Positions 22,949-42,081 of a stretch of 64,000 nucleotides of DNA are shown here, piece after piece (positions within the stretch are counted from its first letter, which is position 1; every line of letters begins with the position of its first letter). The DNA comes from Micromonospora sp. NBC_01699 (lineage in GTDB: Bacteria; Actinomycetota; Actinomycetes; Mycobacteriales; Micromonosporaceae). The stretch spans positions 4,278,001-4,342,000 of the forward strand of contig NZ_CP109199.1 in assembly GCF_036250065.1 (NCBI RefSeq), written 5' to 3'. Under the pieces are notes generated by a model, which was not told the DNA's origin, did no database searches, and saw only the letters and a list, made by a program, of their open reading frames with translations. Both the position numbers and the translations under genes were made by a program.

Positions 22949-24961
22949 TTAGGCGGCGACGAAGCGGGTGGCGTCGGCGACTACGTAGCCGGTGGTGTTT
23001 TCGGTTCGGATGAGGAGGCTGCCGGCGGTGCCGGCGGTGAAGGGGTAGCTGCCGAGGGAGACCCACTGGCCGCCGGCGGACCGCTGGTCGACGGTGCGGG
23101 TGGTGATGCCACCGCTGTGCACGATGTCCACGGGTACGTTGCTGGCCCGGTTCTCGTGCGCGGTCCAGCGCAGGTAGACCGCGTACGTGCCGGCGGACGG
23201 CAGGGTCGGGGTGAACCGCATCCGGTTGACGCCCTTGGCGGTGTTGTCGTCGTGCTCGTAGTCGGGGCCGTAGTAGCCGCCGATCGAGGTGCTGCTCAAC
23301 CAGGTGCCGGCCCTGGTGACCCCGCTGCCGGCCCGGCTGTCGAGGATCACCTCGCCGGCGACCGGCGGCGGCCAGACCAGCAGTTGGCCGTCGGCGAGCA
23401 GCCGGGTGCGCAACGCCGGGTAGTTGACGTCCTGCACGGCCGCGCCCGAGTCGATCGCCTGCAACGCCGCGGTGGCCGCCGACTGGGCGAGGATCATGAA
23501 GACCGGCTCCATCCGGATCGACCCGTACGCGATGTGGCTCGCCGCCAGGCAGACCGGTACGAACAGGTTGGCGCACTGGCCCCGGGCCGGCACAATCGAC
23601 CGGTAGCTGATCGAGTACGGCGCGGGAACGCCGATCTGCACGTCACCCTCGTTGCGGACCCGGCCGCCGACCACCACCCGCTGGCAGTTGTGCGAGTCCA
23701 TCGTGTAACTGGCCAAGCCGACCGGGTCGGTGACCGTCTCCTGGCCACGGCAGTTGCGCTCGGTCATCACGTACGCCGAGACCATCCGCCGGGCCTCGCG
23801 GACGTAGAGCTGTGGCGGCCACCCGCCGGTGCCGGTGAACTCGTCCGGTGCCAGTCCCCACGACCCGGTCGCCGACCTGATCGACGCCGGCAGCCGCGAG
23901 TCGTTGGCCAGGAACCACATCAGTCCCTGCTGGTAGGCACTGTGGTCGGCCGCCAAGCTGTCCCGGGCGGCGTAACTCGCGGTCGGGTACGCGTAGTTGG
24001 CGCCGATGAAGTCGGTGGAGAACGCCCCGTTGTTGTTGGAGTCGGTCTTGCCGTTGCCCACCCCGTGGGTGGTGAAGAACGGGCCGGTCCAGCCCGCCTG
24101 GACGTAGCGCAGCAGCAGTTCGTAGTCGGTGGCGTCGTAGCCGGCCGGGCGCGGGAACGGGATCCGGTTGGCCGCCTGGGTCAGGCACATCCGGTAGTTG
24201 TACGCCTGGATCAGGCCGTCACCGGTCCCGTTGGGCGCCACCGGGGCGGCCGAGATACCGGGCAGCAGCCCACTGGCCGGGCTGCCCGCCACCACGTACG
24301 GGTCGACCGGGAAGTTGAACTGGTGCCCGTTGCGAAGCTGCACCCCGTTGATCGTCTCGCCGTAGCTGCTGTTGCTCTCCCGGCCCACCGTCCAGGTCAC
24401 GCCCGCCCGGTGCATCAGGTCGCCCTCGTAGCTGGCGTCGACGAACATCGGTCCCCGGAACACCTGGCCGTTGTCGGCGACGATCTCGGTGATCCGGTTG
24501 CCGGCCATGGTGACCGCGGACAGCCGGGTGCCGTAGTAGACCGGTACGCCCGACTCGGCCAGCAGGTCGTCGAAGACGGCACGGGCGACGTGCGGCTCGA
24601 AGGTGAACCGGGCCGGTGAGGTCGGGGTGACCGGGGTTCCGGCGTACTTGGCGTGCACCCGGCGGTAGAACTCGCCGGCGATCCCCTTGATCGCGGACTG
24701 GGTGCCGCTGTCGGTCATGCCGAGGCCACCGGTGGTCAGACCGCCGAGGTGGGTGCCCGGTTCGAGCACCACGGCGGTGCGGCCCATCCGGCGGGCCTGC
24801 ACGGCGGCGACGATGCCGGCCGAGGTGGCGCCGTAGACCACCAGGTCGGCGGGGACGACGGCGGCGGCGAGGGCGGCGGTCGACAGGGCCGGCACACCGG
24901 CGACGACGACGGTGGCGCCGCCGACACGCAACAGCGTGCGGCGGGTGATCGGATGGGGCAT
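22949..24961 (-). CDS. Tat-exported FAD-dependent oxidoreductase with C-terminal golvesin/xanthan-lyase-like domain
   Basis: 670 aa. The Tat signal is ITRRTLLRVGGATVVVAGVPAL. The FAD-binding Rossmann motif follows at residues 38-70: DLVVYGATSAGIVAAVQARRMGR, then VVLEPGTHLGGLTTGGLG. The middle is the FAD-dependent oxidoreductase (FAD_oxidored, Pfam PF12831-like) fold with FVDASYEGDLMHRAG. The last 130 residues (VILDSRAGSG ... ADATRFVAA) match the golvesin/xanthan lyase C-terminal beta-sandwich, which is often appended to secreted enzymes. It probably oxidises a sugar or related alcohol outside the cell. The gene is monocistronic by position. Its start ATG is followed within three codons by the twin-Arg signal. 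Confidence 0.8.
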   Translation of the reverse strand: MPHPITRRTLLRVGGATVVVAGVPALSTAALAAAVVPADLVVYGATSAGIVAAVQARRMGRTAVVLEPGTHLGGLTTGGLGMTDSGTQSAIKGIAGEFYRRVHAKYAGTPVTPTSPARFTFEPHVARAVFDDLLAESGVPVYYGTRLSAVTMAGNRITEIVADNGQVFRGPMFVDASYEGDLMHRAGVTWTVGRESNSSYGETINGVQLRNGHQFNFPVDPYVVAGSPASGLLPGISAAPVAPNGTGDGLIQAYNYRMCLTQAANRIPFPRPAGYDATDYELLLRYVQAGWTGPFFTTHGVGNGKTDSNNNGAFSTDFIGANYAYPTASYAARDSLAADHSAYQQGLMWFLANDSRLPASIRSATGSWGLAPDEFTGTGGWPPQLYVREARRMVSAYVMTERNCRGQETVTDPVGLASYTMDSHNCQRVVVGGRVRNEGDVQIGVPAPYSISYRSIVPARGQCANLFVPVCLAASHIAYGSIRMEPVFMILAQSAATAALQAIDSGAAVQDVNYPALRTRLLADGQLLVWPPPVAGEVILDSRAGSGVTRAGTWLSSTSIGGYYGPDYEHDDNTAKGVNRMRFTPTLPSAGTYAVYLRWTAHENRASNVPVDIVHSGGITTRTVDQRSAGGQWVSLGSYPFTAGTAGSLLIRTENTTGYVVADATRFVAA

Positions 24962-27645: not shown

Positions 27646-27661
27646 CCGTCGTTCAACAGCG

Positions 27662-29962
27662 TCAGTTTTGCTCGGCCGTCGGGTGGCCGAGTCGTTTGGT
27701 GAGTTGGGTGAGGAGGTCGAGTGCGGCGTTGGGGATGATGGTTCCGGGTGGGAAGATCGCGGTTGCTCCGGCTGCGCGAAGTGCGTCGAAGTCTTGTTCG
27801 GGGATGACGCCGCCGACGATGATCATGATGTCGGGGCGGTCGAGGTCGGTGAGTGCGTCGCGGAGTGCGGGTACGAGGGTGAGGTGGCCGGCGGCGAGGG
27901 AGTTGACGCCGATGATGTGGACGTCGGCTTCGACGGCTTGGCGGGCGACTTCGGTGGGGGTTTGGAACAGGGGGCCGACGTCGACGTCGAAGCCGAGGTC
28001 GGCGAAGGCGGTGGCGATGACTTTCTGGCCTCGGTCGTGTCCGTCCTGGCCCATTTTCGCGATCAGGATGCGGGGTTGGCGTCCTTCGGCGGTGGCGAAC
28101 GCCGCGGTGGCGGTCCGGGTTTGTTCGATGGTGGTGTTGGTGCCGGCTTCGTTGCGGTACACGCCGGTGATGGTACGGATCTGGGCGGTGTGTCGGCCGT
28201 AGACATCCTCTAGGGCGTTGCTGATTTCTCCGATGGTGGCGTTGGCGCGGGCGGCGTTCACGGCGAGGGTGAGCAGGTTCTGGTCGAGGTTGGTGTGTGT
28301 GGCGGGTTCGGTGGCGGCGGCGTTGCGGAGGTTGTCGAGGGCGGTCGCCCATGCCCGGGGGTCGCGTTCGGTGCGGAGGCGGTGGAGTTTGTTGAGTTGT
28401 TCGGTGCGGACGGCGGTGTTGTCGACGCGTAGGACGTCGATGGGTTCGGTGGTGGTGGGTTGGTGGGTGTTGACGCCGATGACGGGTTGGCGGCCGGAGT
28501 CGATTCTGGCTTGGGTGCGGGCGGCGGCTTCTTCGATGCGGAGTTTGGGGATGCCGGCGTTGATCGCGGCGGCCATCCCGCCGGCGGTTTCGATTTCCTG
28601 GATGTGGGCCCAGGCGCGGGTGGCGAGGTCGTGGGTGAGGCGTTCGATGTAGTGGCTGCCGCCCCAGGGGTCGATGACACTCGTGGTGCCGGATTCCTGG
28701 GTGAGGAGGAGTTGGGTGTTGCGGGCGATCCGGGCGGAGAAGTCGGTGGGTAGGGCGAGGGCTTCGTCGAGGGCGTTGGTGTGCAGGGACTGGGTGTGGC
28801 CCTGGGTGGCGGCCATCGCTTCGACGCAGGTGCGGACGACGTTGTTGTACACGTCCTGGGCGGTCAGGGACCAGCCCGACGTCTGGGAGTGGGCCCGCAG
28901 GGACAACGACTTCGGGTTCTTCGGCTCGAACTGGCGGACGAGTTTGGCCCAGAGGAGGCGGGCGGCGCGGAGCTTCGCGACCTCCATGAAGAAGTTCATG
29001 CCGATACCCCAGAAGAACGACAGTCTCGGGGCGAAGGCGTCGATGTCGAGGCCGGCGGCTTGGCCGGCGCGGAGGTACTCGATGCCGTCGGCGAGGGTGT
29101 AGGCGAGTTCGAGGTCGGCGGTCGCGCCGGCTTCCTGGATGTGGTAGCCGGAGATCGAGATCGAGTTGAACCGGGGCATCCGGGTCGAGGTGTAGGCGAA
29201 GATGTCGGAGATGATCCGCATCGACGGTCCGGGTGGGTAGATGTAGGTGTTACGGACCATGAACTCTTTCAGGATGTCGTTCTGGATCGTCCCGGACAAC
29301 TGTTCCGGGGCCACTCCCTGTTCCTCGGCGGCCACGATGTACAGGGCGAGGATGGGTAGGACGGCCCCGTTCATCGTCATCGACACGCTCATCCGGTCCA
29401 ACGGGATCCCGTCGAACAACTCCCGCATGTCCAGGATCGAGTCGATCGCGACCCCGGCCATCCCCACATCCCCGACCACCCTCGGGTGATCCGAGTCGTA
29501 ACCCCGGTGCGTCGGTAGGTCGAACGCCACCGACAACCCCTTCTGCCCCGCCGCCAGATTCCGCCGGTAGAACGCGTTCGACAGCGCCGCGGTGGAGAAG
29601 CCGGCGTACTGGCGGATCGTCCACGGCTGGGTGGTGTACATCGTCGGATACGGACCCCGCACAAACGGGACCACACCCGGAAACGTATCCAGAAAATCCA
29701 CACCCTCAACGTCCGTCGCGGTGTAGAGCGGAGCAACGCTGATCCCCTCCGGCGTCTCCCACACCAAAGATTCAGGACCGGTACCGGTCCGGTCCCGGAC
29801 CGCGTCCGCCCACCGACCCGGATCCACCACCGGATCCGGAACACCCAACCCCAGATCCGAAAAATCCGGAATCAGACCCGACAAATCCGGGCCCAGGTTC
29901 GGGTTCGGGTCCGGCATCAGGTTCGGGTTCGGGCCTGGGTTCGGGTTCGGGTTCGGGTTCAT
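27662..29962 (-). CDS. mutB: Methylmalonyl-CoA mutase, large (catalytic) subunit
   Basis: 766 aa. It interconverts succinyl-CoA and (2R)-methylmalonyl-CoA using adenosylcobalamin. The catalytic barrel shows [24 protein letters not shown] near residue 100, [19 protein letters not shown], and [25 protein letters not shown]. The C-terminal cobalamin domain has the DxHxxG motif in [12 protein letters not shown] and SLAAGH. The start overlaps the stop of mutA as ATGA, with GGAGG upstream. The N-terminus is odd: about 25 residues of Asn-Pro repeats ([14 protein letters not shown]...) encoded by GGGTTC repeats. The 3' half uses A/C-ending codons (GAA, CAA, CTC, ACC) unlike its neighbours. It is the last gene of the KS-PKS-mutA-mutB cluster. 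No epimerase or MeaB chaperone gene is nearby. Confidence 0.95.
29890..29962 (-). repeat. GGGTTC hexamer repeat encoding the Asn-Pro leader of mutB
   Basis: Imperfect 6-bp repeats (GGGTTC on the plus strand, GAACCC on the coding strand) cover the first 25 codons of mutB, giving N-P-N-P-N-P-G-P. An in-frame ATG at codon 16 lies inside it. Nothing similar is expected in the family. Confidence 0.85.
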
Positions 29963-31791
29963 GCCACCTCCAGGTCAGCCAGCGTCGTTTGGAGGACCCG
30001 TACCGCGTCACAGCCGGTGAACAGGTAGGAATCCACCCCGTCGTACCCACCGGGCGGACCAGCCAGCCAAATTCGTACCGCACCCACCGCGGTCAACGCC
30101 GCCGCGACCGGTGACGCCAACGTCGTATACGCCTTATCCGTACCGCACACACAAGCGACGGTGGCGCCGGAGGCGACGAACGCCGCCACGATCCCGTCCG
30201 GATCGGTCCCCGGGCCGCCGCGGACGGTGGTGATCCCACCGGCGGCGAACAGGTTCGCCGCGAACGACGCCCGAGCCGTATGCGCCGCGACCGGGCCGAG
30301 AGTCGCCAAAAACACGGTCGGGGCGATGCCGGTGGTCGCGATATGCGTCTCGGCCCGATCCCGTAGATCCTCGAACACCTCCGCATACCGGTGCCGGGGT
30401 AACCCACCACCGGGTGAAGTCGGTGCCGGGGGGCGGACCGGTCGACGCTCCTCCAGATTCGGGAACTCACTCACCCCCGTGATCGGATCCCGCCGATGAG
30501 CCAGGTTCTCCACCCGCCGACCCCACGTGCCGGCCAACCGATCACCGACCAAGCCACTGCTCAGGGCGGCAGACAAACCACCGGCCCGCTCAATCTCGGT
30601 AAACCACACCCAGGCCGCCTGGGCGAGATCCTCGGTCAAACGCTCCACATACCACGAACCACCCGCCGGATCGATCACCCGACCCACATTCGCCTCCGCC
30701 AACAACAACGACTGCGTATTCCGGGCGATCCGACGACTGAACCCATCCGGCAACCCGAGTCGGGCGTCGAACGGCGCCACCGTCACCGCGTCCGCACCAC
30801 CCACCCCCGCCGCGAAACACGCCAAGGTCGTCCGGAGCATATTCACCCACGGATCACGAGCCGTCATCATCGCCGCCGACGTCACCGCATGCTGCCGCTG
30901 CCCACCCACCCCACCCACACCACACACCTGCGCCACCCGCCCCCACAACCGCCGCGCCGCCCGCAACTTCGCCACACCCAAAAACTGATCAGCACCCACC
31001 GCATACCGAAACTCCACCAAACCCAAAGCAGCAGCCGGATCAAGACCAGCACCGGTCAACGCCCGCAAATACGCCACCCCCGCCGCGATCGAACACCCCA
31101 ACTCCTGCGCATCACTACCACCCGCATCGTGAAACACCGTCGCGTCGATCGTCACCGCCCGCAGACCGGGATACTCCGCCGCACACCGCACAGCCAGGGC
31201 GGCGGCAGGCCGCAGGTCGGCGACCTCACCCGTACGAGCCTGCCAACCCAACGGATCAACACCCAAACTCCCGGACAACTGTCCCGGAGCCACACCCACA
31301 CCATCAGCCAACCCGAACAACGCCGCAGCCGCCACCTCCGTCAACGGACCAGCATCCAACACCACCCCGACCATATCGAGAAACACACCATCGAGAACCA
31401 CCGGCAACGCCGCCGGATCCACACCACCCGAACCCAACACCAACCAAACCGACGTACCACCATTTTCCAGATCCGCGAGGATCGCCTCGTTCGTCACCAC
31501 CGGATCAGGATCCACATGACGCTGCCGCACATCCCAACCCGAACCCACCGACCGACCACCACGAGTAAACGGCGACAACCCCGGCAAACCAGCCGACACA
31601 ACAGCATCCGCAGCGGTATACAACGGCGCAACATGGATACCGTCGTACGTCATCCGGGCCAGTAGTTCCTCGGCCGCCGCCGGGCTGGTCGACTCGTCGG
31701 CGGCGCCGCTCTTGCGCAGCACCGTCAGCACCAGCTCCTGCCACTGCGCCCGGGTCACCGGTGTGGCCGGAGCGGGAAGGGTTTCCGGCAT
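29959..31791 (-). CDS. mutA: Methylmalonyl-CoA mutase, small (non-catalytic) subunit
   Basis: 610 aa from the ATG at 31791, preceded by GGAAGGG; an upstream ATG at 31827 is also possible. It is homologous to the large subunit throughout but degenerate, as usual. Landmarks are [14 protein letters not shown] near residue 50, [18 protein letters not shown], and [23 protein letters not shown]. The cobalamin-type C-terminal domain lacks DxHxxG. It supports the catalytic subunit in the alpha-beta dimer. The central part (about 30480-31640) uses G/T-ending codons strongly, opposite to mutB. The gene follows the PKS by 68 bp (32 bp for the ATG at 31827) in the same direction. Confidence 0.92.
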
Positions 31792-31859
31792 GGCTGTTCG
31801 CCCTTCCCACTCCGGTCCGTACGTCATGGTTTGCCTTTGCCTTTGTCTCGGTCGTGGCC

Positions 31860-34800
31860 TCAGCCGTCGCTTCGCTTCGGGCCGAACAGGTCGAGGTCCA
31901 TGTACTCGGCCAGGCCGGTCGCGAGTTCGGCCAGCGTCGGGTGCTTCCACACGAAGTTGCCCGGCAACTTCACCCGCAGTCCGCCCTCAAGCCGGGTACG
32001 CAACTCCAGGGAGAGCAGGGAGTCGAAGCCGAGGGCCCGCAGTGGAGTCTGTGGATCCAGGGTCGCGGCACCCAGCCGGAGTACGGCGCGGATGTGCCCG
32101 GTCAGATACTCCTCCAGCGCGGTCCGCCGGCCGAGCCCCGGCTCCAGCGCCTCCAGGTGGCCCCGGATGTCCGGGCTGTCGACCGACTCGTTCTGGTCCT
32201 GCTCCGTGCCGATGTCGAGCAGTTCGAACAGCGGAGACTGCCGCGCGTTGGAAGAGAGCCAGGTCTCCGGCTCACCGGGGACGACACCGGTCCGCACCCG
32301 GTGATGGGTGAGCAGTGCGCCGAGCGCGTGCAGGCCGGACGAGGTGGGGATGGTCTGGTAACCACGGTCGGCGAAGTTGGTCGCCACGCCGGTCTGTCCC
32401 CATGGCCCCCAGTTGACCGCGAGGGTGGGCAGCCCACGGGCGTTGCGCCAGGTGGCGAATCCGTCCAGCCACGCGTTCGCCGCCGCGTAGACACCCTGGC
32501 CGGCGTTGCCGAACAGCGAGGCCATCGAGGAGTAGAGCACGAACCAGTCCGGGGCGGATCGGTCCGCGCAGGCCTCGTGCAGGCGCCAGGCGCCGGTGAC
32601 CTTGGGTGCCCAGACCCGGTCGAGCTGCGCGTCGGTGATGCCGGCGAGGGCGGCGTCGTCGAGCACCATCGCGGAGTGCACGACGCCACGCAGCACACTG
32701 CCACCGGCGTTCGCGACCGTCACCAGGCGTTCGGCGATGTCCGGCTCCGCGACGTCGCCGAGGACGACGGTCACCCGCGTCCCACCGCGTCGCAACTCGT
32801 CCAGCACCCGCTCGGTACGCCGCTCGGGCGGCGTACGACCGTTGAGGACGAGGTGGTTCGCGCCGTGCTCGGCCAGCCAGCGGGCGGTGGCGAGGCCGAC
32901 GCCGCGAAGACCGCCGGTGATGATGTAACCGCCGTCGGACCGTACCGGAACGGGGTCCGACCGGACCGCGGTGGTCTTGCCCTGCTCGGGCATGGTGAGG
33001 ACGAGTTTGCCGAGGTGCTCCGCGGCGGCCATGTCCCGGAACGCCGAGGGCGCGAGCGCCAACGGGTACGTCCGTTGCGGCAACGCGGAAAGCTTGCCGC
33101 TGGCTATCTCCGCCAGCACCTCCCGCAGGACCTCCGCGAGCAGGTCCGGCTGGCGTTCCTGCAACTCGGTGAGGTCCACCGTGCTCAGGCTGATGTTGTG
33201 CCGCAGCGGGGCGAGTCCGAGGGCGGTGTCGGAGATGATGTCGCGTACGCCGAGTTCCACGAACCGACCGAACGGGCGCAGGGTCTCCAGCCCGGCTCGG
33301 ATCGCCGGCCCGGCCAGGGAGTTCAGTACGACATCCACCCCCTCCCCCGCCGTCGCGGCGCGGGTCTGGGCCGCGAAGTCCAGCGAGCGCGAGTCCATCA
33401 CGTGCTCGATTCCCAGCTCGCGCAGGTAGCGGCGCTTCTCCTCGCTGCCGGCGGTGGCCAGGACCTCGGCGCCGAGCAGCCGGGCCACCCGTACGGCGGC
33501 CAGTCCGGTTCCGCCGGTGGCGGAGTGGATCAGGATCCGCTCGCCCGGCGCGAGGCGGGCCACGTGGCGCAGCGCGTACCAGGCGGTGGCGAAGCCGACG
33601 GGCAGTCCGGCGGCGGTGGCGAAGTCCAGTCCGGCGGAGATGGGGACCACGAAGACCGCGGGCACGGTGGCGAACGACGCGAAGGATCCGCCCCGCAGAT
33701 CGAGGGCGAGCACCCGGTCGCCGGGGCTGACGTGGGTGACGTCCGGGCCGACCGCGTGGACCACACCGGCGCATTCGAGTCCGATGCGGTACTTCAGGTC
33801 GTCGCCGCCGGGCAGCAGGCCCATGACGGTGAGGACGTCACGGAAGTTCAGCCCCGCCGCCTGGACCTGGATCTCGACCTCGCCGGGACCGGGTGCCACC
33901 GGGGCGGTGATCGCGAGTTCGAGTCGGTCGGGTTCGCCGAGCCGACCGGCCCGGAGCCGGAACCGGTCCACTCCGTACCGGACGGGACGCACGGTGGCGG
34001 CGGTCCGTTCGGTGCTGGACAGCGGCGCGTACGCGAGCCGGGCCACCTGCCGGGTGCCGGCCCACAGGGCCACCTCGTCGTCCGGGGCGGCACCGAGCAG
34101 TTCGTCGACGAGCGCGTCCGGGGTCGGCTGTTCCGGGTCGGTGTCGATCAGGGTGGCCCGCAGTTCCGGATGTTCGTGGGCGAGGACGCGGAGCACCCCC
34201 CGTACGGCGGTGTGGCTGAGGTCGACCCGGTTGGCCCCGGCGACGGCCTGCCCGCCGTGGGTGATGACGTACAGCCTCGGCGGTTGTGGGTAGTGGGCGG
34301 TCACCGCCTGGGCGGCGGCCAGCAGGAGTCGGGTGTGGCGCATGGCGGCGATGCCCGGATCCGCTTCCGATGCCAACGGTGGTAGCACCAGCACCAGGCC
34401 CCTCGGCGGTGCGGGCCGGGCGGCGAGCCATTCGACCAGGGACGACCGGAGGGAGTCCAGCGACGCGAGCGGGTCCGGGGCGTTCCGGGTACGGGTGATC
34501 GCGCCGGACTGGAGCAGCAGCTTGCTCAGGTCCTGGGCCGCGCCGCCGGGTCCGCCGAGTACGGCCCACTCCCCCGGCCGTGCCGACCGGACCGGTGGGC
34601 GGGGTTCGGTGCGCCAGCCGACCTCAAGGAACCACTGGTCGACATCGACCGGGTCGTCGCTGCGGTGCCGGACGAACTCAAGGTCGTCGAGCACGGCCAG
34701 CACCACGCCGTCCTCGTCCAGCACGGTGACGGTGCCGCGCAGGGTCGACGCGTCGTCGTGGTCGATCCGGGCGATGCAGTAGGCGGCGGTCGCCGGGTCG

Positions 34801-37800
34801 CCGAGGACCCGCATCGCCCGCAGTCCGACCGGCAGCACCTGGTCCTGTCCGCCGTCCGCGATCACGCCGGCGACCAGCAGTTGCGCGCAGGCGTCGAGCA
34901 GGATCGGATGGACCCGCAGCGCGGACTGCGCGACGTCCACGGACGGTGGTTCGATCCGGGCGAGGTAGCTGCCGCCGTCGGCGGAGCTGTGCAGTTCCCG
35001 GATGATCGCGAACGCGGGACCATGGTCGATGCCCCGCTCCCGCAGCCCGCCGTAGAGCGCGGCCGGGTCGATCGCCACCGGGTGCCGGTCGGCGAGCGCC
35101 GGTACGGAGAGCACCCGGCGTTCCTCGGAGGGGACATGGCGCAGTCCGGCGATGGCGTGCCGGATCCACTCGCCGTCGTCCTCCCGGACCAGGAACTCGC
35201 ACTCGGCCCGATCGGGTGCGACCACGGTGACGGTGGTGCCCAGCGCGGTCTGCTGGCCGAGCCGGAGCAGCTCGCGGAACTGCACGTCGGTGATCTCGAT
35301 CTCCGCCGGGGTGGCGTCGAACACGGCGCAGGCGGCGTCCACCGCGACCGCGACGTACGCGGCACCGGGCAGCACCGGTTCGCCGTGTACCCGGTGGTCG
35401 GTCATCCACGGCAGGGCGGCGGTGCCGACCTCGCCGTGCCAGGCGTGCTGGGCCGGGGTGCCGGCGACCTCGGTGTACCAGCCGGGCAGGGTGCCGGCGG
35501 CGCCGGGGGTGCGGTCGGGTCGGGTGGTCGCCCCGAGGTCGGGAATCCAGTGCCGACGGCGGTCGAAGGTCATCGTGGGTACGTCGGCGAGGGCGCTGTC
35601 GGCGTACAGGACCGACCAGTCGACCGGTACGCCGACACAGTGCAGGGCGGCGAGCTGGGTCCGGAAGGTGCGTGACTCGTCCTCGTCGCGCAGCAGCGTG
35701 GGCAGGACCACCGGGTCGCTGCACAGGCCGCGCAGCACCTCCGCCACCGGCTGGGTCACCACCGGGTGGGGTGACACCTCGACGTACACGGTGTGCCGGT
35801 CGGCCGCGGCGGCGGTGACGGCGGCGGCGAAGCGGACCGGGCGGCGCAGGTTCGCGCACCAGTACGCCGCGTCGAACGCCGGTGCGTCGGCCGGGTCGTC
35901 GAGCACGGTGGAGTAGAACGGCACTTCGGTCGGACGGGGACGGAGGTCGGCGAGTGCGGTGGTGAGGTCGGCGAGCAGCGGATCGACCTGCGGGGAGTGG
36001 GATGCCACGTCCACCGCGATCTGTCGGGCCGGTACGCCGCGCGCGTCCCATTCCTCGACCAGTCGCCGGATGTGGGCGGCGTCGCCGGCCACCACCGTGG
36101 ATTCGGCGGAGGCGATGACCGCCACCGAGACGGTGTCGGTCACCCCGGCGGCGGCGAGTTCGCCCTGTACGGCGTCGCGGTCGAGGCTGACACTGGCCAT
36201 CGCCCCGGCACCGGCGATCCGCTCCAGCAGCGCCGACCGGCGGCAGATCACCTTGACCCCGTCGCTGACCGACAGGCCGCCGGCGACCACCGCCGCGGCA
36301 ACCTCGCCCATCGAGTGGCCGATCACGCCGGCCGGTTCGACGCCGTACGCCCGCCAGGTCGCGGCGAGGGCGACCTGCATCGCGAACAGCACCGGTTGCA
36401 CCCGGCCGCAGCCGCTGACGGCGGTGCCGTCGCGGATCACGTCGAGCACCGAGAAGCCGGCCTCGGCGAGGACCAGCTTGTCCACCTCGGTCAGTGCCCT
36501 GGCGAAGGCGGGCTCGTGTGCCAGCAGGGTTGCGCCCATGCCCGCCCACTGGGAGCCCTGGCCGGAGAAGACCCAGATCGGCCGGCGACTGATGCCGGCG
36601 CCGACCGCACCGGAGACGACCGCCGGATGAATCCGGCCGGCGGCGTACGACCGCAGCGCGCCGACCAGGTCCTCCCGGTTGTCGGCGACCACGCCGAGGC
36701 GGCCCCGGCCCGGGGATCGGCGCAGGGCGAGGGTGTGGGCGATGTCCCCGAGCGCGACCGGGGCGCCGTCCCGTTCGAGCCAGTCGGCGAGCCGCTCGGC
36801 CGCCACCGGTAGCGCCTCCGGTGACCCGGCCGGTACGAGGAACACACCGGGGCCGTTCGTTACGGCCGATGCGGTGGTCCCGGACCGGTGGCGGCGGCCG
36901 ACCGGGGCCGGGGCCTGTTCCAGGATGACGTGGGCGTTCGTGCCGGAGAAGCCGAACGACGACACCGCCGCCAGTCGGCTCTCCTGCCCGGCGGGCCAGC
37001 CGACCACCTCGGTCGGCACGAACAGCCGGGTGTCCTCCGCGTCGATAGCCGGGTTCCAGCTGTTGAAGTGCAGGTTCGGCGCGATCTGGTCGGCCTGTAG
37101 GCAGAGTACGGCCTTGATCAGGCCGGTGACGCCGGCCGCGGGTTCCAGGTGGCCAATGTTCGTCTTCACCGATCCGAGTGCGCACGGGTGCTCGCCGGCG
37201 CCGTAGACGCTGGCCAGGCTCGCGAACTCGATCGGGTCGCCGACCGGGGTGCCGGTGCCGTGCGCCTCGATCAGCCCGATGTCGCCCGGCTCGACCCCGG
37301 CCGACCGTAGCGCCCGCTGGTACAGGGCCTGCTGCGCGGCACCCGACGGCGCGGTGAGCCCGTCGGAGCGACCGTCCTGGTTGACCGCACTGCCCCTGAT
37401 CACGGCCAGCACCCGGTCACCGTCGCGGGTGGCGTCGGCCAGGCGCTTGACCACCACCACTGCGCATCCCTCGGAGCGGACGAAGCCGTCGGCGTCGGCG
37501 TCGAAGGTGTGGCAGCGGCCGGTCGGGGAGAGCATCTTCATCCGGGCGAACGACCTGGTGGTGGTCGGCCAGAGCCGCAGGTTGACCCCGCCGGCGAGGG
37601 CGGTGTCGCACTCCCCGGCCCGCAGTGCCTGTACCGCCAGGTGTAGTGCCACCAGGGAGGACGAGCACGCGGTGTCCAGTGAGACGCACGGGCCGCTGAG
37701 CCCGAGCAGGTAGGAGATCCGTCCGGCGGCGACGCAGAACCCGTTGGTGAGGATGGCGCCGGCCAGTTCCTCGGTCCGACCGGCGAGCTGCCGTACGTAG

Positions 37801-38213
37801 TCGTCGTAGCTGATGCCGGTGAACACACCGGTGGAGGTGCCGTCCAGCCGCTCCGGCGGCAGTCCGGCGTGCTCCAGCGCCTCCCAGGTCACCTCGATCA
37901 GCAGCCGCTGCTGCGGGTCGAGCACGTCCGCCTCCTGGCGGCCGACGCCGAAGAAGTCCGCGTCAAAGCCGGCGACGTCGCGCAGGAAGCCGCCGGCCCG
38001 GGGTACGCGTTCCCCGGCCGGTATCCGTCCCCCCAGGTCCGACATCTCGCCGCCGGTCCGTTCGACCGGCAACTCGCCCACCGCGTCCCGCCCGTCCACT
38101 AGCAACTGCCAGAGCGCCGCGGGCGAGTCGACGTCGCCGGGCAGGCGACATCCCATCCCGATGATCGCGATGGCCTGATTTTCCGGTCCGGCGTGTTCTG
38201 TTTTCTGGCGCAC
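31860..38213 (-). CDS. Single-module fully reducing type I polyketide synthase (KS-AT-DH-ER-KR-ACP)
   Basis: 2117 aa from a GTG with GGAAGGGG upstream. The domain order is as follows. KS (about 15-440): nucleophile C183 in DTACSSS, H318 in EAHGTGT, H355 in KTNIGHLEP. AT (about 545-860): S634 in GHSMGE and VASH at 736-739, closer to the methylmalonyl xASH class than to malonyl HAFH. DH (about 925-1200): H940 in HRVHGEPVLP and a HPILLDA Asp. ER: LNFRDVLTVMG and the NADPH loop SATGGTGLAAV. KR: TGGLRGVGLA, an LDD motif (B-type) and YSSMASLFGNAGQGVYAAANA. ACP: S2065 in LGFDSLL. There is no thioesterase. Length and order match mycocerosic acid synthase-type iterative enzymes that make methyl-branched acyl chains. 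The adjacent mutase genes point to methylmalonyl-CoA as extender. The product is unknown. Confidence 0.93.
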   Translation of the reverse strand: MRQKTEHAGPENQAIAIIGMGCRLPGDVDSPAALWQLLVDGRDAVGELPVERTGGEMSDLGGRIPAGERVPRAGGFLRDVAGFDADFFGVGRQEADVLDPQQRLLIEVTWEALEHAGLPPERLDGTSTGVFTGISYDDYVRQLAGRTEELAGAILTNGFCVAAGRISYLLGLSGPCVSLDTACSSSLVALHLAVQALRAGECDTALAGGVNLRLWPTTTRSFARMKMLSPTGRCHTFDADADGFVRSEGCAVVVVKRLADATRDGDRVLAVIRGSAVNQDGRSDGLTAPSGAAQQALYQRALRSAGVEPGDIGLIEAHGTGTPVGDPIEFASLASVYGAGEHPCALGSVKTNIGHLEPAAGVTGLIKAVLCLQADQIAPNLHFNSWNPAIDAEDTRLFVPTEVVGWPAGQESRLAAVSSFGFSGTNAHVILEQAPAPVGRRHRSGTTASAVTNGPGVFLVPAGSPEALPVAAERLADWLERDGAPVALGDIAHTLALRRSPGRGRLGVVADNREDLVGALRSYAAGRIHPAVVSGAVGAGISRRPIWVFSGQGSQWAGMGATLLAHEPAFARALTEVDKLVLAEAGFSVLDVIRDGTAVSGCGRVQPVLFAMQVALAATWRAYGVEPAGVIGHSMGEVAAAVVAGGLSVSDGVKVICRRSALLERIAGAGAMASVSLDRDAVQGELAAAGVTDTVSVAVIASAESTVVAGDAAHIRRLVEEWDARGVPARQIAVDVASHSPQVDPLLADLTTALADLRPRPTEVPFYSTVLDDPADAPAFDAAYWCANLRRPVRFAAAVTAAAADRHTVYVEVSPHPVVTQPVAEVLRGLCSDPVVLPTLLRDEDESRTFRTQLAALHCVGVPVDWSVLYADSALADVPTMTFDRRRHWIPDLGATTRPDRTPGAAGTLPGWYTEVAGTPAQHAWHGEVGTAALPWMTDHRVHGEPVLPGAAYVAVAVDAACAVFDATPAEIEITDVQFRELLRLGQQTALGTTVTVVAPDRAECEFLVREDDGEWIRHAIAGLRHVPSEERRVLSVPALADRHPVAIDPAALYGGLRERGIDHGPAFAIIRELHSSADGGSYLARIEPPSVDVAQSALRVHPILLDACAQLLVAGVIADGGQDQVLPVGLRAMRVLGDPATAAYCIARIDHDDASTLRGTVTVLDEDGVVLAVLDDLEFVRHRSDDPVDVDQWFLEVGWRTEPRPPVRSARPGEWAVLGGPGGAAQDLSKLLLQSGAITRTRNAPDPLASLDSLRSSLVEWLAARPAPPRGLVLVLPPLASEADPGIAAMRHTRLLLAAAQAVTAHYPQPPRLYVITHGGQAVAGANRVDLSHTAVRGVLRVLAHEHPELRATLIDTDPEQPTPDALVDELLGAAPDDEVALWAGTRQVARLAYAPLSSTERTAATVRPVRYGVDRFRLRAGRLGEPDRLELAITAPVAPGPGEVEIQVQAAGLNFRDVLTVMGLLPGGDDLKYRIGLECAGVVHAVGPDVTHVSPGDRVLALDLRGGSFASFATVPAVFVVPISAGLDFATAAGLPVGFATAWYALRHVARLAPGERILIHSATGGTGLAAVRVARLLGAEVLATAGSEEKRRYLRELGIEHVMDSRSLDFAAQTRAATAGEGVDVVLNSLAGPAIRAGLETLRPFGRFVELGVRDIISDTALGLAPLRHNISLSTVDLTELQERQPDLLAEVLREVLAEIASGKLSALPQRTYPLALAPSAFRDMAAAEHLGKLVLTMPEQGKTTAVRSDPVPVRSDGGYIITGGLRGVGLATARWLAEHGANHLVLNGRTPPERRTERVLDELRRGGTRVTVVLGDVAEPDIAERLVTVANAGGSVLRGVVHSAMVLDDAALAGITDAQLDRVWAPKVTGAWRLHEACADRSAPDWFVLYSSMASLFGNAGQGVYAAANAWLDGFATWRNARGLPTLAVNWGPWGQTGVATNFADRGYQTIPTSSGLHALGALLTHHRVRTGVVPGEPETWLSSNARQSPLFELLDIGTEQDQNESVDSPDIRGHLEALEPGLGRRTALEEYLTGHIRAVLRLGAATLDPQTPLRALGFDSLLSLELRTRLEGGLRVKLPGNFVWKHPTLAELATGLAEYMDLDLFGPKRSDG

Positions 38214-38276
38214 CGGAGTCCCCTTCCACTAACAATGTGAATACCTGGCGGGCGTGCTGGTGGTGACGTACCGGTG

Positions 38277-39584
38277 TCAGTCCGCTCGACCCAGCAGGAT
38301 CGAGCTCTGTAGGCCGCCGAGCTGGTAGGTGAAGGTCAGGGCGTGGTCGAAGTCGAGCTTCCGGGTGGTCACCCCGGGTACGGGGTCGAACGGCAGGTCT
38401 TCGAGGGGTTCCTCGCAGTTGGCGGTGGGGCACACCTCGCCGTGTTGCATCATCAGCAGGGTCAGCGCCACACCGAGCGATCCGGTCGGTGCGCCGTTGT
38501 GCCCGAAGCACCCTTCCTGCGAGGTCATCAGCAGGTCCGCCGCCGCCGGGCCGTACAGGGTTCTGATCGCGTTGGACTCCAGGGTGGCCATGCCGCCGTC
38601 GCTGCCGCCGTGGATGTAGGGGACCTGCTTCAGGTCCCACTGCTGTCCGAGGCACTTGCGGACCGCCGACACCAGTCCGGCACCGCTGTCGTCACTGGCC
38701 AGCGGGTGGGCCAGCCCGTCCCGGACGACCGCCTGGGCCAGCACCCGGCCGTGGGGTCGGGCGCTCCGGCGTTCGGCGTGTTCCCGGCTCTCCAAGATGA
38801 CGGTCGCGGCACCCTCGCCGTAGTTGACGCAGTGCGCCCGCCGGTCGTACGGCCGCATCAGCCGTTTGAAGGACAGCACCTCGTCCGGCAGCGGCATCGG
38901 CCGGTCCGCGGCGTCGAGTTGCTGGACGACCTCCACCAGTCCGAACAGGCGCTGGAGCAGGTCGAAACTCAGGGTGTCGACGCCGGTGACGACGGCGATC
39001 TCCACCTCGCCGGCGGCGATCATCCGGCGGGCGTTGTTGATCTGGACCGACGACGACGAGCAGCCGCAGGAGACGGTGAAACACGGGCCGGTGGAGCGGA
39101 CCAGTGCCGACTGGGCCAGTGCCACATCGGACGGGGTGAGCGAGAGCGCGGTTTCGACGAAGATCCCGGCCGCGGCGGCGAGGTCGATCGTCTCCGAGTC
39201 ACTACGGAGCATCGCGAGGTAGCTGCCGATGTTGGCGTCCACCCCGCCACGGGCGGCGAGGATCCCCGCCTCGGTGAGATCGTCGGTCCGGAAGTCGAGC
39301 CCGGCGTCCTCGCAGGCGGCGACCATCGCCACCAGCCCGAGCCGGTGGGCGTCGGTGAAGTGCTCGGCGAAGACGCCGGGCACGTCCGGCACGAGTTGCT
39401 CGAACATCCCCGCGGTGAGACCGACGGTGCCGTAGTAGACGCCCTCGTCGTTGCGGGTCAGGCAGCAGCGACCGGTGGAGGCGACCCGCCACATGTCGTC
39501 CGCGGTGGTGACCGGCTCGTTCTCTCCGGGCAGGCAGAAGCCCATGCCGGTGACCAGCACGTCGCGTCCGCTCGCGCCGGTCAT
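38277..39584 (-). CDS. Stand-alone ketosynthase with altered active-site lysine
   Basis: 435 aa, thiolase/KAS fold. The nucleophile is C175 in SCGCSSSSVQI. The first His is H325 in YIHGGSDGG, which replaces the usual HGTGT. The second His is H362 in EGCFGHNGAPTGSLG. The conserved Lys four residues before that GH motif is Glu357 here. Other KAS landmarks are VTGMGFCLPG at the N-terminus and MRPYDRRAHCVNYGEGAATVIL near residue 245. The triad is thus intact but the Lys is lost, so chain initiation, acyl transfer or a selective step is possible instead of ordinary decarboxylative elongation. It is translated first in the cluster, 63 bp before the PKS. Its ATG overlaps the stop of a 13-codon leader (ATGA), and an in-frame TAG three codons upstream fixes the start. 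Confidence 0.85.
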   Translation of the reverse strand: MTGASGRDVLVTGMGFCLPGENEPVTTADDMWRVASTGRCCLTRNDEGVYYGTVGLTAGMFEQLVPDVPGVFAEHFTDAHRLGLVAMVAACEDAGLDFRTDDLTEAGILAARGGVDANIGSYLAMLRSDSETIDLAAAAGIFVETALSLTPSDVALAQSALVRSTGPCFTVSCGCSSSSVQINNARRMIAAGEVEIAVVTGVDTLSFDLLQRLFGLVEVVQQLDAADRPMPLPDEVLSFKRLMRPYDRRAHCVNYGEGAATVILESREHAERRSARPHGRVLAQAVVRDGLAHPLASDDSGAGLVSAVRKCLGQQWDLKQVPYIHGGSDGGMATLESNAIRTLYGPAAADLLMTSQEGCFGHNGAPTGSLGVALTLLMMQHGEVCPTANCEEPLEDLPFDPVPGVTTRKLDFDHALTFTYQLGGLQSSILLGRAD

Positions 39585-39622
39585 GAGGGGCTACCCGAGG
39601 TCGACGGTACGAATGCTTTCAT
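39581..39622 (-). CDS. 13-codon leader ORF coupled to the ketosynthase gene
   Basis: An ATG at 39622 follows AAGGAGAGAG, the best ribosome-binding site of the cluster. The peptide is MKAFVPSTSGSPS. Its TGA overlaps the ketosynthase ATG by 4 bases, and the ketosynthase has no Shine-Dalgarno of its own. This is a translational-coupling arrangement; a role for the peptide itself is not evident. Confidence 0.55.
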   Translation of the reverse strand: MKAFVPSTSGSPS

Positions 39623-40559
39623 GATCTCTCTCCTTGAGAAAAGCGCGGACTTGGACACCGACTTGAAACCTCGCCGCAATATGGGTTGCATTTCCCGGCG
39701 GCCATTCGGCCGACAGACACAATGAACCCCCGGGATGGGGGCGGCAACGTCACCCGGCAGCCCGCGTGACGTCTACGCGGTGGTGGCGTCGTAGAATTCG
39801 ACAGTTCTCAGTTCGGCGCCGGCACACAGCCGGAACACGAGACTCGGCGATGGAGACACCGCGTCGTCTCAGAATTCGCGCAAGCGCCAGCCTGCCTCTT
39901 TGTATGTTCGCGCCTTCGCGCGGAGCTGGCGGCGACAACCACGACGCCGAAATGTCAGACCCCAGCGGCGTGCACCGGGATCGAGCTTGACGCGAGCATA
40001 TACATATGCCCAGACCCTTGCAAGGGTCACCACTCTGATCAAACGCCGCCGTCTCCGGACTCTTCGACAACAGCGCTCGAAAACCGAAAAATGTGAGGGC
40101 GAATCGATAATAGGCAGTTCTCAGATTTCCGCGGCAAGATGAAAGGTTTACTGTGCGGCCGGCCGGATCGCCGGTTACCGGAGCAGGTCGACCGCGCCGA
40201 AGTAAGCCCGGAGCGGCCCGATCGGACCCCCGGCCGACCCGCCACCCGCCCACCGGGAGGGCAGTCAGCGCTCAGGCGAGGCTCGAACTTCGATGCTGAT
40301 CGATATATCACCGTTCACGCAGGTCACAGCCCTGGTTGACCGGACAGAACATCCACCGAGACAGATGTGAGATCTGCCCACATCTCCAGCAATGGCTACA
40401 CAGCTCTCGTACGCGACATCTGGGATTTATCGTGACGGATCAATGACAGACGGACCGGAGCCGGGGCCGGTACGGTCGGACCACGCCGCGAGCCCGACAA
40501 ACGGGGCCGATCCCCTGGTCGGCATGTTCCCGGCGAGGTCCCATCGCAAGGAGAAGACC
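39623..40559. other. 937-bp gene-free region upstream of the PKS cluster
   Basis: No convincing coding frame is present; the open frames on both strands have non-coding composition. The region is less GC-rich than its surroundings and lies between the divergent leader/ketosynthase and a secreted-protein gene. It holds two perfect palindromes at 39996-40028 and a 7-bp dyad AGATGTG-N9-CACATCT at 40363-40385. It is probably a control region with a long 5' leader on one or both sides. Confidence 0.7.
39996..40028. promoter_or_regulatory. Two adjacent perfect palindromes, candidate operators
   Basis: GCATATACATATGC (39996-40009) and GACCCTTGCAAGGGTC (40013-40028) are both fully symmetric (14 and 16 bp) and separated by 3 bp. 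The region around them is AT-rich for this genome. They lie about 375 bp upstream of the cluster leader and 530 bp upstream of the secreted-protein gene. The binding protein is unknown. Confidence 0.5.
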
Positions 40560-41144
40560 ATGGGCGTTTTCAAAACGACCTCGGCGAAAGCCCTCACCGC
40601 GTGTCAGGCCGGGCTCGGCGTCGCCGCCACCCTGCTCGCATTCGGTCTGCTTCCGCCCTCGACCGCCACAGCGAAAGCCGCCGACCCAGAGGTCGTCGCA
40701 CCCCGCCTCATTCCAGTCCTGACAAACTTCAGAGACGATGGCATCGGGCTACCGGGGGCTGCCCCCTGTCCCGGCGGCACGGCAATCCGCGGCGACGCGG
40801 TACTCGGGACCCGGACCGGCGACACCTGGCTGGGCAACATTGTGTACGACTACTGCCTGATGTCGACCGGACTACCCGACCTGTTCACCCTGAGCGGGAC
40901 GGCGTCGTTCGTCGGCACGATAGTCGGATGCGGAATCGGCAGTATCAGTTACAACGTTTCCAACGGAGTGGTACGGCCGGTTGCCGGCGCAAAGGCCGCC
41001 AACGGCTACCTGTCCTGGACAATGATCGACGGCACAGGCACCCTCGGTCTGGTCGGTGTGACCGCCGGCAGTGGTGCCGGAGTCCTCACCATGCAACGCA
41101 ACTTCGCCAACGAAGGTTATTTCGTGGGCGTCGTCACCTGCTGA
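40560..41144 (+). CDS. Small exported protein with four cysteines, unknown function
   Basis: 194 aa from the ATG at 40560, with AAGGAG seven bases upstream; in-frame starts further upstream have none. A signal peptide of about 40 residues (ALTACQAGLGVAATLLAFGLLPPSTATAKA) precedes a mature part of about 155 residues. This is Gly/Thr/Val-rich and probably all-beta, with Cys in APCPGG, YDYCLM, VGCGIG and the C-terminal VVTC, enough for two disulfides. I recognise no family. It may be a secreted beta-sandwich protein. A hairpin follows 6 bp after the stop. Confidence 0.7.
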   Translation: MGVFKTTSAKALTACQAGLGVAATLLAFGLLPPSTATAKAADPEVVAPRLIPVLTNFRDDGIGLPGAAPCPGGTAIRGDAVLGTRTGDTWLGNIVYDYCLMSTGLPDLFTLSGTASFVGTIVGCGIGSISYNVSNGVVRPVAGAKAANGYLSWTMIDGTGTLGLVGVTAGSGAGVLTMQRNFANEGYFVGVVTC

Positions 41145-41149
41145 ACCCG

Positions 41150-41181
41150 CCGGGCTCGCCGACCCACCGAGGCGGGCCCGG
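41150..41181 (+). terminator. Hairpin terminator
   Basis: CCGGGCTCGCC (41150-41160) pairs with GGCGGGCCCGG (41171-41181) with one G-T wobble and a 10-nt loop, just after the stop at 41144. Confidence 0.6.
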
Positions 41182-41307
41182 ACAGCATGCCGGGCGCATG
41201 ACCGTACAGCCGTCGGTCGTGCGCCCGCCGCCGTGTCACGGCGTGCCGCACCGCACGGTGGCGCACCGCCGGAGAATCCACCGCCGGCGGTCGGCCACAA
41301 TGCGCTG

Positions 41308-42081
41308 ATGAACGGCGCCTCGATCACCATCGGCCCGACCCTGTTCCCGGTCCTGGCGGCGCTGACCCTGCTCGCCGCGACCGTGTTCGGGCTGACCCGG
41401 CTCGGCTCGGGAGCGGCGGTGGTACGGGCGGCGGCACGGGCCGTACTGCAACTCGGCGCCGTCTCGCTGATCATCCTGACGGTGCTGGAATCCTGGTGGA
41501 GCACGTCCGCCTTCATCGCCGTCATGTACGTGGTGGCCTCGCTGACCTCGGCCCGCAGAATCAGCTCCGCGCGTGCCGGATGGGTCGCCGCACTCCCGAT
41601 CGGACTCGGTGTACTGCCCGCGCTCGGGCTGCTCCTGGCAAGTCGGTCGCTGCCCGCGACACCGCTGGCGGTACTGCCGACGGCCGGAATCCTGATCGGT
41701 GGTGCGATGACCGCCACCACCCTCGCCGGCCGCCGCTCACTGGACGAACTACACGCCCGCCACGGCGAGTACGAGGCCGGGCTGGCGCTCGGGTTCGGTC
41801 GACGCGACGCCGTACTTGAGGTGTGTCGGGAGCCCGCCGGCCAGGCGCTCGTACCCGCGCTGGACCAGACCCGGACGGTCGGGCTGGTCACCCTGCCCGG
41901 CGCGTTCGTCGGCGTACTGCTCGGCGGGGCGAGCCCGGTGCAGGCCGGAGTGACGCAACTGCTCATCCTCGTCGCACTGCTCGCGGTGGAGACGATCGCC
42001 ATCGCCGCCACGGTCGAGTTGATCGCCCGCGGCGTGCTGCGTCGGGACCCCTCACCTATCGGCCGGATCGGGCCGCGTTGA
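41308..42081 (+). CDS. fetB: FetB/UPF0014-family ABC permease
   Basis: 257 aa from the ATG at 41308; the frame is open further upstream but that part is non-coding. About seven transmembrane helices. The UPF0014 signature VLPTAGILIGGAMTATTLAGRR lies near residue 130, and LPGAFVGVLLGGASPVQAGVTQLLILV near residue 210. FetAB in E. coli is an iron exporter that protects against oxidative stress. No FetA ATPase gene is adjacent, so the partner must be elsewhere or this works differently. Its stop overlaps the convergent M56 peptidase gene by 26 bp. Confidence 0.8.
   Translation: MNGASITIGPTLFPVLAALTLLAATVFGLTRLGSGAAVVRAAARAVLQLGAVSLIILTVLESWWSTSAFIAVMYVVASLTSARRISSARAGWVAALPIGLGVLPALGLLLASRSLPATPLAVLPTAGILIGGAMTATTLAGRRSLDELHARHGEYEAGLALGFGRRDAVLEVCREPAGQALVPALDQTRTVGLVTLPGAFVGVLLGGASPVQAGVTQLLILVALLAVETIAIAATVELIARGVLRRDPSPIGRIGPR

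Follow-up and report, generated by a model that had tools for sequence, protein, structure and literature searches.

Does a polyketide synthase (PKS) gene that lies between a stand-alone ketosynthase (KS) gene and a pair of methylmalonyl-coenzyme A (CoA) mutase genes form a single pathway with them? The question is raised by a locus of Micromonospora sp. NBC_01699 (assembly GCF_036250065.1), whose genome is a single contig of 8.28 Mb (NZ_CP109199.1). The window analyzed here is a stretch of 64,000 nucleotides of this contig (positions 4,278,001 to 4,342,000), and feature coordinates below refer to it. Its minus strand carries an array that consists, in this order, of a leader open reading frame (ORF), the stand-alone KS, a full PKS with KS, acyltransferase (AT), dehydratase (DH), enoylreductase (ER), ketoreductase (KR) and acyl carrier protein (ACP) domains, mutA and mutB. 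On balance, our analysis leans towards an acquired operon that would make a fully reduced acyl chain with multiple methyl branches, and in which a KS0-like protein would be the partner of the PKS and the mutase would be a duplicate. The conserved unit is the pair of KS and PKS.

An operon-like array within an inserted block

The genes of the array are spaced as in an operon. The stop codon of the leader overlaps the start of the KS, the PKS begins 63 nt after the KS, the gap between PKS and mutA is 32 or 68 nt depending on the mutA start, and mutA and mutB have an ATGA in common. A first-pass annotation of this DNA had described the same minus-strand array with its short gaps, and all the elements are present in the order it gave. 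It had also set the limits of the system at 27662 and 39622. The array indeed lies within them, but the inserted block that holds it continues to about 42,053.

The block (27647..42053, no strand; 14,407 bp) is flanked by a GH3 gene on one side and an M48 peptidase gene on the other. In a blastn comparison of the window with another genome of the genus (G002), the alignment ends at 27646 and restarts at 42054. The GH3 and M48 peptidase genes of that genome are adjacent, the aligned parts being about 51 bp apart, and the block is absent. A second genome of the genus (G001) has the GH3 gene and lacks the array; its M48 gene was not found within the 40 kb examined around the GH3 gene. No KS homolog was detected in either genome at an E-value of 1e-50.

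The KS and the PKS are conserved as a pair

How general is this arrangement? We compared 53 loci in which the KS is followed by the PKS: that of the window, seven from its family, 13 from plasmids, one from the chromosome of S. milbemycinicus (found by a pattern scan of low sensitivity) and 31 from genus g75, taken as Streptomyces. A 54th KS+PKS locus (in genome G019) is split across two contigs. The first-pass annotation had made recurrence of the order KS-PKS-mutAB in relatives a test of its reading. The KS+PKS part of it recurs, but mutAB adjoin the pair in a single locus of the 53, so that the five-part set is not supported as a conserved pathway. The flanks searched past the PKS extended for at least 4.9 kb in 48 of the 52 other loci, for 1.3 kb in one (L107) and for almost nothing in three (L110, L128 and S. 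milbemycinicus).

The KS occurs in nine of 354 genomes of the family, representing three of its 44 genera, in 44 of 392 genomes of genus g75, and in one of 396 genomes sampled across the phylum, which is the window's own. Within g75, every locus whose KS has at least 55% identity adjoins the PKS (31 of 31). Similarly, among 101 relatives, the KS and the PKS (65–67%) are found in the same four genomes; a fifth, from another family, has a PKS at 52% and lacks a KS of this family. KS and PKS distances over 47 loci are correlated (r 0.79, with 0 of 2000 permutations as high), a correlation of a kind that shared descent alone explains to a large extent.

The pair is also carried by plasmids. In PLSDB, the KS was detected in 22 of 72,556 plasmid records, 21 from Streptomyces and one from Kitasatospora. 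Thirteen of the 22 were examined; 12 of these are linear and 12 are annotated (the S. nigrescens record is without features), and the flanks in 10 of the 12 annotated plasmids contain replication-type genes (primase or DnaB-like). Raw identity of the window KS is highest to Streptomyces-type loci (63%), and recent acquisition from a Streptomyces plasmid was considered. It was rejected on the basis of a tree of 54 of the 68 KSs (14 near-copies, fragments or type repeats being left out), which places the window KS together with five genomes from its family (100/99).

Several features accompany the pair elsewhere. In 32 of the 53 loci, the window not being among them, a DUF5988 protein of about 65–72 residues is encoded ahead of the KS match, at a distance of 230–390 nt on its upstream side; none of the papers found in our literature search names it. 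Proteins with IPT/TIG domains and VCBS repeats are common near the cassette in the plasmid loci (L051–L063). In a plasmid of Streptomyces sp. NBC_00376 (L057, 14532–22358), the family PKS is broken by an IS4-family transposase gene, and in two further loci (L127 and L136) the PKS match is split by a gap of some 0.3–0.6 kb near residue 1280, either an insertion or a broken gene.

The PKS resembles mycocerosic acid synthase

The PKS (31860..38213, minus strand; 2117 residues) contains all six domains according to Pfam. Among solved structures, it is most similar to mycocerosic acid synthase (MAS), matched with 1574 bits over residues 14–2103, which bears out the earlier assignment to the MAS type by domain order and size. 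The region comprising the KS-AT linker and the AT domain (residues 454–880; 35574..36854, minus strand) carries the motif VDVASHSPQVDP. Six solved chains match the AT at an E-value of 1e-80 or better. All are MAS, and the wild-type ones have VDVASHSPQVDP in identical form, while entry 7agq has Phe instead of Ser in it. The VASH motif is present in 54 of 54 family PKSs. Since the AT carries this MAS motif, it likely uses methylmalonyl, in line with the extender proposed by the first-pass annotation. The catalytic motifs of DH, ER and KR are present as well. Taken together with the MAS-type AT motif, they make a fully reduced, methyl-branched chain the natural inference for the product.

One chain with KS-AT-DH-ER-KR-ACP and catalytic motifs, a full-length match to MAS and a methylmalonyl-type AT motif are sequence features of MAS-like iterative PKSs, and the window protein has all three. 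Against the mycobacterial Pks2 equivalog model (NF041183) it scores 1848.2 bits, below the cut-off of 2400. It shares domain order, size, full-length similarity and an identical VDVASHSPQVDP with MAS and MAS-like PKSs (PDB 9d2z, 5bp1 and 7agp). Unlike the MAS systems, however, it has a stand-alone KS in front. Moreover, no FadD, PapA or other loading or release gene is adjacent, and neither is a thioesterase (TE), a ligase or a transferase, as the first reading of the sequence had already noted.

A further likeness is found in BGC 1P of the giant linear plasmid of S. rimosus, for which a standalone MAS-like PKS, predicted to be iterative, is described (PMC9045324). It is likewise one KS-AT-DH-ER-KR-carrier PKS, and some relatives of the window locus also reside on linear Streptomyces plasmids. 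In the part of that description available to us, by which alone the two were compared, its neighbors are five hypothetical proteins, two regulators and a P450, and no KS is named.

The stand-alone KS probably lacks residues needed for elongation

What, then, could the additional KS do? It is a protein of 435 residues (38277..39584, minus strand) that matches Pfam ketoacyl-synt, and we refer to it as KS0-like based on residue counts and profile alignments. For reference we used E. coli FabF, whose His303, His340 and GFGG gate have been described (PMC7138838, as far as the consulted part goes). Among the 53 PKS-linked KSs (one row of the alignment, L150, is misaligned), the active-site Cys and the second His are each present in 53. 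The column of FabF His303 is occupied by Gly (42), Ala (9), Ser (1) or Cys (1), so that the His of the HGT motif is found in 0 of 53. The column of Lys335 holds Glu in 52 and Asp in one. The gate Phe400 is replaced by Val (30), Ile (15), Leu (7) or Thr (1), and the GFGG gate loop is not kept. Profile alignments likewise place Gly opposite the catalytic His, both with E. coli FabF and FabF-like proteins (9 of 16 of the latter were used, those encoded on the other strand being left out) and with 54 cis KS domains.

The residues of an elongating FabF-type (KAS II) enzyme, namely Cys, two His and Lys, are therefore incomplete: Lys is changed to Glu or Asp in all 53, and the HGT His is absent by profile alignment. 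Loss of this His with retention of Cys is, in the part of PMC4661987 consulted, the hallmark of KS0 domains, whose proposed function is release or transfer; in the available text of PMC7618002, a KS0 acts as a chain-transfer gate. By profile alignment, the KS of the window has the same combination. As far as these sources describe them, KS0s are domains of large PKSs, whereas the window KS is a separate FabF-like protein in which the catalytic Lys is also changed. Because the HGT-motif His is absent, the catalytic Lys is replaced by Glu or Asp and Cys is kept, the protein is predicted to transfer acyl groups without elongating them, which makes it a candidate for the loading or release step of the PKS. 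The active-site changes thus fit the earlier suggestion that the extra KS may aid chain start or release.

One alignment conflicts with this assignment. In the pairwise phmmer alignment, the His of the KS YIHGG segment is placed, by means of a gap, on the catalytic His. The same His lies two residues before the His303 column in the profile alignments and is replaced by Asn in 10 of the 53 KSs. A structure model of the KS built from two sequences had a mean pLDDT of 32.7, too low to place the catalytic His.

The phmmer placement would suit a different role, that of a condensing enzyme building the first unit or adding the last, as is probable for its distant relatives in type II-like clusters. 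Fourteen loci of genus g75 encode a KS of 38–49% identity, none with this PKS beside it, and those that were read have genes for KSIII, a short-chain dehydrogenase/reductase (SDR), a second KS, CoA ligase or CocE. The invariant Cys is also compatible with condensation, and so is a weak NCBIfam match to AmcF, the KS of cispentacin biosynthesis, at 96.1 bits, far under the cut-off of 325. Like the window KS, AmcF is a FabF-like, stand-alone enzyme that does not belong to fatty acid synthesis; according to the portion of PMC10698177 consulted, it condenses together with AmcG, whereas the window KS has no AmcG-like partner gene adjacent. Condensation is at odds with the uniform loss of Lys, the missing HGT His in the profile alignments, the Asn substitutions two residues upstream and the lost gate loop. 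We consider a condensing KS rather unlikely and prefer the KS0-like acyltransferase.

A different type II-like cluster type was observed at L145–L148, where two distant KS relatives lie on opposite strands about 7.5 kb apart, in L145 with KSIII and SDR genes between them.

A short leader ORF precedes the KS

The leader ORF (39581..39622, minus strand) has 13 codons and encodes MKAFVPSTSGSPS. AAGGAG precedes it, and its stop overlaps the KS start in an ATGA. In 34 of the 53 loci, the KS start is overlapped by a short ORF that begins with ATG and has a ribosome-site-like sequence, whereas mononucleotide shuffling of the DNA upstream would yield 0.58 such loci. The leader is therefore more than chance. 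In S. milbemycinicus, an overlapping ORF is present that fails the rule solely for lack of a ribosome-site match. None of the seven same-family relatives has a leader, even though the tree groups the window KS with five of them.

Leader length, mostly 10–13 codons, is better kept than sequence. This fits translational coupling of the KS, which we regard as the probable function. The leader peptide was also considered as an acyl acceptor and rejected as too weak a proposal, given the variable sequence and the 19 of 53 loci that have no leader under the rule used.

The mutase is probably a copy of the host housekeeping enzyme

The small subunit of the mutase is encoded by mutA (29959..31827, minus strand, with 31791 as an alternative start; the mechanical GTG start at 31950 falls within the PKS and is unlikely). 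Its match to TIGR00642 scores 556.7 bits, below the cut-off of 617.25, and the other copy in the genome is below it too (584.6). The large subunit, mutB (27662..29962, minus strand; 766 residues), matches NCBIfam PRK09426 with 1271.5 bits (cut-off 876). Its active-site Tyr, Arg and His and its DxHxxG motif align with those of the solved mutase 1req. The identity given in the first-pass annotation is thus upheld, and the evidence supports mutB as a true methylmalonyl-CoA mutase. The start of mutB (29880–29962, minus strand) is an Asn-Pro-rich repeat stretch that imperfect direct repeats encode and that lies outside the alignment to the housekeeping copy.

The possibility that mutAB are the only mutase of the genome, which would have spoken against a dedicated role, was examined and rejected: a second, complete mutA-mutB-meaB operon is present, from contig positions 3943147–3947051 on. 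In the mutB protein tree, the window copy joins this housekeeping copy (99/98). Five-taxon DNA trees also unite the two, with support of 100/100 for mutB and 93.6/89 for mutA. Most trees thus point to the window mutAB as a duplicate of the genome's own housekeeping mutase. Both genes are constrained, mutB more so. Identity between the two mutB copies at codon positions 1, 2 and 3 is 0.922, 0.938 and 0.775 (739 codons), changes being mostly at third positions; the values for mutA are 0.833, 0.865 and 0.569.

Do these genes serve the PKS? They could instead be a hitchhiker, that is, a housekeeping duplicate that landed beside the KS+PKS pair and has no special role there. The presence of mutAB in a single locus agrees with this, as do the position of meaB beside the other copy and not this one, and the seven of nine KS+PKS genomes of the family that have no such mutB. 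In these seven, only lower-scoring relatives were detected below the NF006944 cut-off, above which the window genome has two mutB and one other genome (G169) has one. The arrangement of the genes argues the other way: they are on the same strand as the PKS, begin about 32–68 nt past it and overlap in ATGA, their reading frames are intact and mutB is constrained. We give the hitchhiker explanation a modest chance and regard it as unlikely overall. As mutAB are adjacent in one locus of 53, and mutB is below the cut-off in seven of nine family genomes, the KS+PKS cassette generally appears to do without mutAB, and the copy in the window seems to have been added in this lineage specifically.

The direction of the reaction may also be questioned. 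The mutase reaction is reversible, and the enzyme might drain methylmalonyl-CoA to succinyl-CoA while the PKS is idle. A gene placed for co-production with the PKS would then compete with it, and we find this reading very improbable. In the forward direction, the product of mutases is (2R)-methylmalonyl-CoA, and the (2S) form is the one that PKSs use. One of six epimerase matches in the genome is above its curated cut-off, and it lies 2.5 Mb from the window.

PKS clusters with a mutase of their own have precedents. As far as the consulted parts of the sources go, mutA-mutB type genes (kmy22–kmy25) occur in the kendomycin B cluster (PMC8708025), and environmental rifamycin-like clusters include a mutase of their own (PMC6175910). 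As partially described, the former is large and modular and also includes meaB and a carboxylase gene, whereas the window has one iterative PKS and mutAB alone.

Our literature searches, which missed most subscription journals, found no paper on MAS together with a mutase and none in which a MAS-like or other iterative PKS is paired with a stand-alone KS. Work by Wang et al. in 2020 on iterative PKSs of Streptomyces reportedly may cover related PKSs. As judged from sequence comparison, it is the MAS-like PKS with a conserved KS0-like partner that seems unusual, in a cassette that is recurrent; mutase genes within PKS clusters are already known.

Other genes of the block and its surroundings

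The block contains two further genes, both on the plus strand. One (40560..41144, its start taken as the ATG before a signal-like segment) encodes a small, probably secreted protein without a Pfam family. The other (41071..42081, as the listed ORF; the true start is probably later) encodes a UPF0014 membrane protein and lies mostly inside the block. Just beyond the block edge is a gene for an FAD-dependent oxidoreductase with a golvesin C-terminal domain (22949–24961, minus strand). Rfam, tRNA, repeat and promoter/terminator scans returned nothing of bearing on the question asked here.

A model for the array

The gene order, insertion site, motifs, KS+PKS co-occurrence and, in most trees, the duplication are observations; every function in the following model is predicted. 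The MAS-type PKS would add methylmalonyl units iteratively and fully reduce each, as its domains and motifs suggest. The stand-alone KS would be translated via coupling to the leader ORF and act as a KS0-like acyltransferase of thiolase fold, holding an acyl chain on its Cys without decarboxylative condensation. With neither the HGT-motif His nor the catalytic Lys, it would most likely serve in acyl transfer, either delivering a starter acyl group to the PKS or taking the finished chain from it; of the two, loading is slightly favored. The mutase, a copy of the host housekeeping enzyme joined to the operon in this lineage, would convert succinyl-CoA to (2R)-methylmalonyl-CoA, from which the distant epimerase would supply the (2S) form.

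A number of results weigh against this model. AT specificity is assigned by motif and homology, and the phmmer alignment leaves the KS with a His at the catalytic position. The block contains no meaB and no TE, ligase or transferase. The mutase genes accompany the pair in the window only, and most family genomes with the pair have no mutB above the cut-off. Finally, the mutA protein tree gives no resolved placement, and mutA has 81.0% identity to its G002 counterpart against 79.0% to the genome's own other copy. With these set against the evidence above, an acquired operon with a KS0-like partner and a duplicated mutase still seems to us somewhat the better bet.

Implications

A broader proposal, which we put forward tentatively and hold somewhat short of even confidence, is that the locus represents a minimal, widespread lipid cassette of a type that has not been defined before. 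In it, a free-standing KS0-like acyltransferase would serve a MAS-type iterative PKS; the cassette would have spread among actinobacteria partly on linear plasmids, and the window copy would have captured a fresh duplicate of the host mutase. If this is true, KS and PKS constitute a compact two-gene system for methyl-branched chains, in which a free acyltransferase replaces the ligases and transferases of mycobacterial systems, and the loading and unloading of a single-module PKS become testable with two proteins. The window itself would show a housekeeping precursor gene joining a biosynthetic operon, with the donor copy, the new copy and the empty site all still visible.

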